Positions 26,834 to 29,318 of a stretch of DNA of 64,000 nt are shown piece by piece. The notes beneath the pieces were generated by a model. It was not told where the DNA came from. It searched no databases and was given only the letters and a program-made list of their open reading frames with translations. The stretch comes from Kribbibacterium absianum (GTDB taxonomy: Bacteria; Actinomycetota; Coriobacteriia; Coriobacteriales; Atopobiaceae). The stretch spans positions 186,001 to 250,000 of the forward strand of contig NZ_JASJEX010000004.1 in the NCBI RefSeq assembly GCF_030067705.1. Reading direction: 5' to 3'. Both the position numbers and the translations under genes were made by a program. Every line of letters starts with the position of its first letter. The first letter of the stretch is position 1.

Positions 26834-27199
26834 CTACTCCGCCTCGGCGAGGGCCTTCTTGGCGACCTCGGCCAGTTGCGCGAAGGTGTCGGCGTCCTCG
26901 TAGGCGATCTGGGAGAGCACCTTGCGGTCCAGCTCCACGCCGGCCAGCTTGAGGCCGTGCACGAAGTTGGAGTAGTTCATGTCGTTCATGCGGGCGGCCG
27001 CGTTGATGCGCTGGATCCAGAGCTTGCGGATGTCGCGCTTCTTGTTGCGACGGTCGCGGTACTGGTACTGCATGGAGTGGCGGCTCTGCTCCTTCATGCC
27101 GCGGAGGGTGCGGCTGGAGGTGCCGTAGTAGCCCTTGGTGCGCTCCTGGAGGGTGCGGCGCTTCTTCTTGGCCATCACTGCGCGCTTGACTCGTGCCAT
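26834..27199 (-). CDS. rplT: 50S ribosomal protein L20
   Basis: The 121-residue protein matches L20: it starts [15 protein letters not shown], is strongly basic throughout, and has the conserved RDRRNKKRD-x-RKLWI-x-RINAAAR block and a [11 protein letters not shown] segment. L20 binds 23S rRNA early in 50S assembly and in several bacteria represses its own operon. ATG 27199 is used because L20 proteins begin MARVKR; AGGAG lies 9 nt upstream. It is the last gene of the infC-rpmI-rplT operon and ends at a bidirectional terminator. Confidence 0.97.
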
Positions 27200-27267: not shown

Positions 27268-27471
27268 TTACTGACGGCCCTTGCCCATGCGCTGCTCGAC
27301 GGTCTTCACGTCGGCCTTGTCGAGCACCTCTTCCTTGCGGAAGTTGCGGATGCGCTTCGGCGACTTCTTGGTGAGGATGTGGCTCTTGAAGGCGCGGGCG
27401 CGCATGATCTTGCCGGTGCCGGTGCGGCGGAAGCGCTTGGCGGTACCCTTGTGGGTCTTCATCTTGGGCAT
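27268..27471 (-). CDS. rpmI: 50S ribosomal protein L35
   Basis: The 67-residue protein is L35, close to the usual 64-66 residues. It starts [15 protein letters not shown] and contains [19 protein letters not shown], then a basic tail. The ATG has AAGGAGA at 6 nt and begins one base after the infC stop codon, so translation is probably coupled. The in-frame extension upstream to 27582 lies within infC and was discarded. Confidence 0.97.
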
Positions 27472-27472
27472 G

Positions 27473-28036
27473 CTAGTTCTCCTTCTTGTCCTTGCCCTCG
27501 GGCTCCTTCTCGTCGAAGGCGCCCTTGATGGGGGCGACGAGCATGTGCATGTTGCGGCCCTCCATCTTGGGCTGCTGCTCAACGGTCGCGTAAGGGCGCA
27601 GGTCCTCAGCGAGCCGGTCGAGGATCTTGCGGCCCTCCTCCGGGTGCGCCATCTCGCGGCCGCGGAACATGATCGTGATCTTGACGCGGGCGCCCTTCTT
27701 GAGGAAGCGCATCACGTGACCCTTCTTGGTCTCGTAGTCGCCCTTATCGATCTTGGGTCGGAACTTCATCTCTTTGATCTCGACCCGCTGCTGGTTCTTA
27801 CGAGCGGCCTTGGCCTTGATGGCCTGCTCGTACTTGTACTTGCCGTAGTCCATGACCTTGCAGACCGGGGGATCGGCGTTGGGGGCGATCTCCACCAGGT
27901 CGAGGTTCTGGTCCTCGGCGATGCGCAGCGCGTCACGGATCCCGAAGAGACCCAGCTGCGAGCCGTCCACCCCAATGAGGCGGCAGGTCCTGGCGTTGAT
28001 CTGGCCGTTGATGCGCGGCCCGTCGTTCTTGGCTAT
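27473..28036 (-). CDS. infC: Translation initiation factor IF-3, apparent AUA start
   Basis: This 187-residue IF-3 has PRINGQI and [11 protein letters not shown] of the N-terminal domain, then [21 protein letters not shown] and a C-terminal domain with [13 protein letters not shown]-x-HPE. IF-3 stops premature subunit joining and checks the start codon. No ATG, GTG or TTG lies in frame between the AAAGGAAGG Shine-Dalgarno sequence and PRINGQI. The codon at the right distance (9 nt) is ATA at 28034-28036, giving (M)[10 protein letters not shown]. Rare infC starts (AUU in E. coli) allow feedback by IF-3 itself, which is probably the case here. The C-terminus ends in a charged [10 protein letters not shown] tail. 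Confidence 0.93.
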
Positions 28037-28080
28037 AGCGGTACACCTTCCTTTCGTGGCCTTGTCGGCCGTTGTGTAAC

Positions 28081-28110
28081 AAAAAACCGGTGCGCTCGGG
28101 AGCCACCGGT
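28081..28110 (-). terminator. Attenuator-like terminator in the infC leader
   Basis: On the minus strand a hairpin with 7-bp outer arms (28086-28092 and 28104-28110) and an inner GCTC/GAGC extension is followed by six T. It ends about 45 nt before the infC start, inside the probable 5' leader. A second hairpin (AGGGC/GCCCT arms, 28128-28132 and 28138-28142) lies just upstream. A terminator here, before an infC-rpmI-rplT operon, suggests transcription attenuation. The ligand, perhaps L20 or translation status, is unknown. Confidence 0.6.
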
Positions 28111-28255
28111 CATCACAGCCAAAGGACAGGGCGCAGAGCCCTGGTGCAGTTGCATTGTGAGGACCAGTCAGCAGCCTTCGGTGGCGCCGATCAGGTGGGG
28201 ACGGGGCTTTCGCGACATCCCGCTTGGGTGCGCAGAGTTCGCGCAACGGACTTGG

Positions 28256-28261: not shown

Positions 28262-28503
28262 GCACGTACGCACGTGCGGGGGCTCGGCGCACAAGAACTG
28301 CGCGAGACCGCCTCCCGGCGCGACGGCTCGTGGGGTGGCGCGCTTTGGAGGGGCGAGCTCTGGGGGGGCGCCCTCCCGCCCGCTGCGGACGTGCGCGGAA
28401 TCGATTGTCCGCAAAACTCCCGGGCCGGTTGCGCGGAAATGACGGCCCAGTGGCCTTGTCCTCATGCGTTTCCTACTGTTTTGCCGCAGACATGGGTTGT
28501 GGA

Positions 28504-28541
28504 GAACCGTTTCCCCGCAACTCATTGCGGGGAAACGGTTC
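28504..28541. repeat. 38-nt perfect palindrome between divergent infC and yhhN-like genes
   Basis: Two perfect 17-nt arms (28504-28520 and 28525-28541) flank a 4-nt centre. No T run follows on either side and both neighbouring genes point away, so it does not look like a terminator. It could be an operator or a REP-like element. The rest of 28262-28628 holds nothing else I can name. Confidence 0.7.
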
Positions 28542-28628
28542 CGCGCAAACGACCGGCCGGAACGCGCTGTTTGAAGTCCCCCGTTTCCTGTGCCACCATC
28601 CTGTGCCAACCGTAGGGAGGGGTGCACT

Positions 28629-29318
28629 GTGTCCGGCGTGGTGTGCGCGTGGGTGCTCGGTGTCCTCGGCGTGCTGATGGACGCCTGGTTCATTGTCACG
28701 GACCGCAGGGGCGCGCTGCGACGAGCCGTGCCGCTCAAGGGCGCAGCCTCGGCGCTGTTCGCGGCTGTCGGACTGCTCGGCGCCGCTGGAAGCCCTTCCC
28801 TGTTCGCTTGGACGGTCGCGGCAGGGCTCGTGGCCGGCGCGCTTGGCGATGTCCTGATGGCCGCACGGCACCTCTGCGAGGGCACGGCCAAGAACGTGTT
28901 CCTCGGCGTGGGAATCGTCGCGTTCGCGCTTGGTCACGTGCTGTACCTCGCGGCCCTGCTCGGCGTTGGCGCGAACGTGCTGGCCACCGTGCTTTTGTCG
29001 GCAGCAATCTGCGCCGTGCTCTGGCCGTTCTTCGCCAAACGGGTCAAGGCGCCGACCCCGCTCATCGGCCGCCTGGGCTACAGCTACCTGGTCGTGGTCA
29101 GCACCATGTCCGCAGCCGCCATCGCCTGGGCTGTCTTCTCCCCCAGCCCGCAGTCTGTCTGCATGGCGATCGGCGCCGTGACGTTCGAGTTGAGCGACGC
29201 CTGCATGGTGCTGAACGGCTACAGCCTCCAGCCCGGACGGCCTCCCCGACCGTTCAATTTGGCCATCTACTACGCTGCACAGCTCTTGGTGGCCGCGTCA
29301 CTGTGGCTGCCGGCCTAG
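28629..29318 (+). CDS. YhhN/lysoplasmalogenase family membrane protein
   Basis: The 229-residue protein has about eight hydrophobic segments and the YhhN/TMEM86 layout. Recognisable elements are K-GAASALFAA in helix 2, LVAGALGDVLMA in helix 3 and FELSDACMVLNGY near the end, with conserved acidic residues (GD, SD) facing into the membrane. Family members hydrolyse the vinyl-ether bond of lysoplasmalogens or play a role in lipid turnover. GTG 28629 is chosen because GGGAGGGG lies 6 nt upstream and helix 1 starts right after; the upstream ATG at 28590 has no such site. Its stop overlaps the end of the convergent PIN gene by 4 bp. Confidence 0.75.
   Translation: MSGVVCAWVLGVLGVLMDAWFIVTDRRGALRRAVPLKGAASALFAAVGLLGAAGSPSLFAWTVAAGLVAGALGDVLMAARHLCEGTAKNVFLGVGIVAFALGHVLYLAALLGVGANVLATVLLSAAICAVLWPFFAKRVKAPTPLIGRLGYSYLVVVSTMSAAAIAWAVFSPSPQSVCMAIGAVTFELSDACMVLNGYSLQPGRPPRPFNLAIYYAAQLLVAASLWLPA

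Follow-up and report, generated by a model that had tools for sequence, protein, structure and literature searches.

Weak initiation codons are a known feature of infC, the gene for translation initiation factor IF3. In Escherichia coli the gene starts with ATT and is under IF3 feedback, and in Streptomyces, most species of which carry a wrong infC start in their annotation, it starts with ATC (PMC5472188). ATT is also the infC start of Bacillus subtilis (PMC6097659). The closest precedent for the locus described here comes from Staphylococcus aureus, in which retapamulin-enriched ribosome density was found at an AUA start of infC and the authors propose autoregulation by IF3 (PMC13009471). 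A second layer of control is described for B. subtilis, where an L20-interacting leader stands upstream of infC-rpmI-rplT (RF00558; PMC6097659, PMC10931766). Its structure is described as narrowly distributed to Firmicutes (PMC6097659), and in the titles and abstract openings of the papers listed by our searches we found nothing on an L20 leader in Actinobacteria or Coriobacteria that speaks against this description.

Here we analyse the infC locus in a window of 64,000 nucleotides from Kribbibacterium absianum, that is, the whole stretch of DNA under study, and compare it with related loci across Coriobacteriia and other classes of Actinomycetota. In the parts of the cited work that concern infC, the S. 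aureus gene shares both gene and codon with the window; S. aureus belongs to another phylum, however, and its AUA start was located by ribosome profiling, whereas ours is derived purely by comparison. The starts given for E. coli, Streptomyces and B. subtilis in the cited passages are of the same AUH class (AUA, AUC or AUU) as the one found here but differ in the third base. The infC of the window joins these known weak starts, AUU in E. coli, AUC in Streptomyces and AUA in S. aureus. Among the open-licence papers listed by our searches we recognised none that describes an AUA infC start in Coriobacteriia.

Results

The infC operon in the window

Three genes follow one another on the minus strand of the window in the order infC, rpmI and rplT. 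infC occupies 27473..28036, rpmI (ribosomal protein L35; TIGR00001) lies at 27268..27471 and has an ATG start, and rplT (ribosomal protein L20; TIGR01032) lies at 26834..27199. Read from the ATA at 28034..28036, the window translation gives 187 residues and then a stop. This product matches TIGR00168 over residues 4-171 (E 3e-68; 228.8 bits against a cut-off of 60), as expected of a full-length IF3. Solved IF3 chains also match it (E 1.4e-59), and its PF05198 match (E 4.9e-31) is the only one in the genome.

On the minus strand the start region reads, 5' to 3', AAGGAAGGTG-taccgct-ATA-GCC-AAG-AAC-GAC. The Shine-Dalgarno-like sequence (28044..28053, minus strand) thus stands 7 nt ahead of the ATA, and only 5 contiguous bases of it match the canonical motif. 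The sequence-only reading of this stretch had held that no AUG, GUG or UUG is in frame. This is correct from the Shine-Dalgarno sequence to the IF3 N-terminus but not farther upstream, where the frame of this GC-rich window is open and the nearest in-frame canonical codon, a TTG at 28246, lies 70 codons off. In the other direction, the first in-frame canonical codon is a GTG at 27970, 22 codons on. GGAGG-N4-9-ATA was found 4 times in the window against 3.8 expected, and as this is the chance level the case for the start is carried by conservation and not by the motif. A search with the bare 20-mer returned just the site itself and has no evidential weight.

Conservation of the infC start codon

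For comparison we used 80 relatives, the best 80 of at least 578 confirmed stretches. Their record titles are mostly Olsenella, Atopobiaceae or Coriobacteriaceae, so the sample is not independent of phylogeny. ATA stands at the aligned codon in all 80. Its occurrence in the sampled relatives too means that the codon is neither an error nor an oddity of a single strain. By comparison, the isoleucine codons at positions 2-180 of the same 80 genes comprise 634 ATC, 153 ATT and 12 ATA (n=799). Given this scarcity, the ATA at the start does not behave as an ordinary isoleucine codon, and its presence in 80/80 is more than chance. An SD-like run of at least 5 bases is properly spaced before the ATA in 77 relatives; in 2 of these a canonical codon satisfies the start rule given below as well. 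The rule fails in 3/80. As a control, rpmI was found to start with ATG in 79/79 loci where the pattern located the gene.

We extended the comparison with a second sample of genomes, which may share some species with the set of 80. An IF3 N-domain was present in 233/246 genomes of the class and in 146/149 of a draw from the phylum. From this sample 200 loci were taken, 192 of them distinct; of these 108, counting the window, belong to the class and 84 to other classes. Starts were called where a run of at least 5 SD bases stood at a spacing of 5-12, with canonical and AUH codons judged alike. A tally by the best SD run alone was dropped: since adjacent codons share one SD, in many deeper loci it chose a codon beside the AUH codon, such as a CCC or CCT directly ahead of ATC.

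By this rule an AUH start is present in 106 of the 108 distinct class loci and a canonical-only start in none; a single locus (L181) has, beside its AUH start, a GTG that also meets the rule. Two loci of the window's order (L180 and L201; 2/55) carry ATA behind a 4-base SD run and meet the rule with no codon. ATA occupies the position in 55/55 loci of that order, window included, drawn from four groups with 11, 31, 12 and 1 loci (f1, f2, f3 and f5). The other orders of the class (n=53) have ATC in 33, ATA in 10 and ATT in 10. The alignment of infC starts across Coriobacteriia that had been proposed as a check on the AUA thus shows, over 108 distinct loci, a codon conserved in the order, and AUC, AUU or AUA at the position elsewhere in the class.

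Beyond the class, 56 of 84 loci have an AUH start (31 ATC, 19 ATA and 6 ATT), the remaining 28 fit neither kind, and a canonical start by the rule occurs in 0. Some of the 28 show TTG, ATG or GTG, or else GTC or GTA, with a weaker SD or another spacing, and the spacing limit of the rule hides some canonical-looking starts (L240, L249, L256 and L275). In some other Actinomycetota families, GTC follows an SD-like run at the start position in L121, L129, L130, L140 and L258, as does GTA in L135, L229 and L273. These loci offer neither a canonical nor an AUH codon that satisfies the rule, and the two codons are possibly still rarer starts.

Together these data show by comparison that the infC start position is always occupied by one of the weak AUH codons in the class. 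They bear out the AUA start, through its presence in all 80 relatives and 55 order loci, the in-frame stops considered below and the isoleucine usage. They correct the view of AUA as something much rarer and odd: within the order as sampled it is the rule, and AUA at S. aureus infC is already described (PMC13009471).

A conserved RNA element in the infC leader

Further upstream in the infC 5' leader lies an L20-leader-like RNA element composed of a hairpin and an irregular two-part helix (28154..28225, minus strand). It is followed, in the gap between the element and infC, by an intrinsic-terminator-like hairpin with a T6 run (28081..28111, minus strand; -16.4 kcal/mol), which we regard as a putative attenuator. 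A strongly conserved block ahead of this hairpin, CCACCT..CGGCGC..GC.GCTG.CTGGTC, is found as a strict pattern in 70/80 relatives. In L053, L054, L058 and L081 the ATA and the SD-like sequence are kept and the leader core is absent by pattern; by eye these four have another GC-rich hairpin farther upstream, with a T run in some.

We built a covariance model (R1) from 60 of the 62 distinct leaders, leaving out L005 and L023, whose anchoring was wrong; the window is not in the model. Among the 60 leaders, the 5' hairpin shows covariation, with changes on both sides in 5/6 pairs, and its pairing is kept in 98.7% of cells, against 94.0% for column shuffles and 25-55% when slid. The two inner helices are nearly invariant and add no covariation. 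In the window, R1 matches 28225-28154 with 46.3 bits and E 1e-15, the runner-up in the genome having E 0.3.

At E<=0.001, R1 matched 60/65 and 41/45 infC loci of the class in two sets that have five genomes in common, and 2/80 loci of other classes, a count in which three genomes occur twice and L272-L280 are not included. Both matches outside the class lie near infC (L112:1810-1867(-), E 4e-7; L224:255-315(+), E 2e-7). With these two loci in mind the origin of the leader may predate Coriobacteriia, although stray matches of similar strength occur. Across whole genomes of the class 94/119 match, 92 of them once, at places not all tied to infC. The 25 class genomes with no R1 match include 20 that are listed by group, 8 in f2, 6 in f8, 3 in f9, 2 in f6 and 1 in f3. 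In the phylum draw 16/149 match, namely all 12 genomes of this class and 4/137 others, and these four matches lie off infC as judged by the infC places. At least two of the whole-genome matches in the class are likewise off infC (the second in G052, and that in G039), and one stray match reaches E 2.7e-6. Such strays make the E-values of R1 rough and the counts at infC loci the safer measure.

The terminator-like hairpin (28111-28081) folds better than most shuffles of its sequence, 1/200 folding as well. It was not among the results of an automatic terminator scan, and a sigma-70 promoter scan returned none on either strand. A plus-strand ORF at 28590-29318 points away from infC; from 28629 onwards it gave no NCBIfam match. 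If this ORF is a real neighbour, the hairpin has no upstream gene on its own strand to end and sits in the leader of infC. In several relatives a tRNA gene lies farther upstream on the strand of infC.

Other structures were seen nearby. A small GGCC hairpin (28058..28070, minus strand) stands just ahead of the SD, in a region whose fold is no more stable than those of shuffles (z -0.12), and similar GC-rich inverted repeats before the SD were noticed by eye in many relatives. The gap between infC and the divergent ORF holds a near-perfect inverted repeat (28497-28548) with 24-nt arms that are 88% complementary; the region folds at -39 kcal/mol, with 0/200 shuffles as good.

Comparison with the Bacillus L20 leader

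As far as the cited passages describe it, the B. subtilis L20-interacting leader shares with the leader found here both its place upstream of infC-rpmI-rplT and the succession from hairpin through irregular helix to terminator. RF00558 matched the leader in four of the 17 relatives scanned (L048, 52.8 bits; L047, 41.6; L013, 35.7; L051, 34.6; E 4e-8 to 1e-3), each match spanning the whole model with the terminator included. The order of elements in RF00558, a 5' hairpin, an irregular helix and a terminator ahead of infC-rpmI-rplT, is present in these four relatives as aligned and in the window. RF00558 had no match in the other 13 relatives at E<=3 or in the window at E<=1. No relative attained the gathering score, which is 58.7 bits, the best scoring 52.8. 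With scores below the Rfam threshold and 4/17 relatives matching, we call the leader L20-leader-like and not a member of the family. It differs from RF00558 members in falling below their gathering score, and L20 binding is putative. Among 149 genomes of the class, RF00558 gave 0 matches over the cut-off and weak ones in 17 (E up to 1), at places not tied to infC; a control also gave a signal in 6/14 genomes, and little weight can be put on matches this weak.

We also compared the leader with the 23S rRNA of the organism itself, looking for a likeness to the L20 site there. The best local alignment scored 24.0 (shuffles averaged 20.5), a value that 28/300 shuffles equalled or beat, and the leader model matched the 23S rRNA weakly, with 9.0 bits (E 0.033). 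A resemblance is tentative at best. Taking position, fold and Rfam matches together, we read the element as an L20-leader-like attenuator in which the part played by L20 is suggested by these three features.

The infC start and its alternative readings

Initiation at an upstream canonical codon, which would yield an N-terminally extended IF3, could draw on the open frame of the window with its TTG at 28246, 70 codons off. There, however, the upstream stretch is the structured leader, and the relatives make such a start highly improbable. An in-frame stop lies two codons ahead of the ATA in 31/80, which excludes an upstream start in those, and in 34/80 the frame holds no canonical codon from the preceding stop up to the ATA. 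The GTG inside the SD fares no better: it is out of frame in 18, absent in 7, in frame and immediately stopped in 31 (by TAG in 15, TGA in 14 and TAA in 2) and in frame and open in 24, so that, being out of frame, absent or stopped in most, it is no general start. We give equally little credence to a start downstream of the AUA, for example at the GTG at 27970 or at an AUC. The GTG has the merit of being canonical, but its use would delete conserved residues of the IF3 N-domain (the TIGR00168 match begins at residue 4), the SD stands 7 nt before the AUA, and the nearest downstream canonical codon lies at 14 different distances among the 80 relatives. Although the assembly is a draft of 7 contigs, an ATA arising from a sequencing or assembly error for ATG is refuted by ATA in 80/80 relatives from public records, which leaves this reading next to no probability at all. 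Somewhat less improbable, and still very unlikely, is coupling, in which an upstream ORF ending at the overlapping stop (AUAG) hands its ribosomes to the AUA. TAG does overlap ATA in 80/80 relatives, and in the window an ORF of 40 codons ends there. This overlap, however, exists because codon 2 is GCN (Ala) in 80/80; the preceding open stretch varies from 1 to 294 codons, 13/80 have no start codon in it, and no conserved upstream ORF was found among the 80 relatives. An upstream start, a downstream start, a sequencing error and stop-start coupling were all rejected on the evidence of the relatives. Judged from this comparison, the AUA at 28034-28036 is almost certainly the true start of infC.

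The SD would hold the 30S subunit at the AUA, and the ordinary initiator tRNA would begin translation there. With the first anticodon base left free, a search for the initiator-type loop (GGGCTNATAACCC) hit the genome once, at a loop whose anticodon is CAU; no such loop with a different NAU anticodon turned up. In the loci of the best 30 of 47 tRNA matches, ARAGORN reported tRNAs for Met (CAT) and one for Ile (GAT), but none with TAT. With CAU in the sole initiator-type loop and TAT not found in those loci, an initiator that reads AUA is not indicated. Formyl-Met is expected at the AUA, and this residue is probably then removed, as Ala follows. Of the possible start codons IF3 rejects all but AUG, GUG and UUG, so that high IF3 would lower, and low IF3 raise, its own translation. 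By analogy with E. coli and others, such feedback is the likely reason for the AUA. The AUA might instead only fix a low basal level of IF3, with no IF3-dependent feedback in this lineage, since weak starts themselves cut yield. In S. aureus reporters, AUU or AUA sites of other genes gave about 10% of the AUG level in poor medium and one such site up to 30% in rich medium (PMC13009471). We nevertheless consider this reading unlikely: the codon shifts among AUA, AUC and AUU over the class with canonical-only starts in 0/108, as would be expected if codons rejected by IF3 were selected, and feedback is stated for the AUU of E. coli (PMC5472188).

Discussion

Feedback by IF3 on its own message may be one of two controls at this locus. 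The conserved fold of the leader, with its terminator-like hairpin, would form a probable second loop that acts on the whole infC-rpmI-rplT operon, in which bound L20 would favour termination as in B. subtilis. We regard the whole explanation, in which an AUA start is combined with IF3 feedback on its own message and a probable L20 loop on the operon, as highly probable. We lean only slightly towards the more general model for Coriobacteriia, whereby a single leader of the infC operon stacks two feedback loops, first an L20-type transcription attenuator and then an AUH start sensed by IF3, with AUA fixed throughout one order.

The case for the AUA infC is well supported and not very surprising. 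The same codon in the same gene has been reported elsewhere, which places the AUA found here in a known pattern. As a start AUA is very weak, and it escapes gene callers that consider ATG, GTG and TTG alone. We presume that the misannotation described for Streptomyces is to be expected in Coriobacteriia as well. The occurrence of AUA, AUC and AUU on one gene provides a natural series for how IF3 reads the third base of the start codon. If L20 binds the leader, the Bacillus-type attenuator would extend to a class of actinobacteria.
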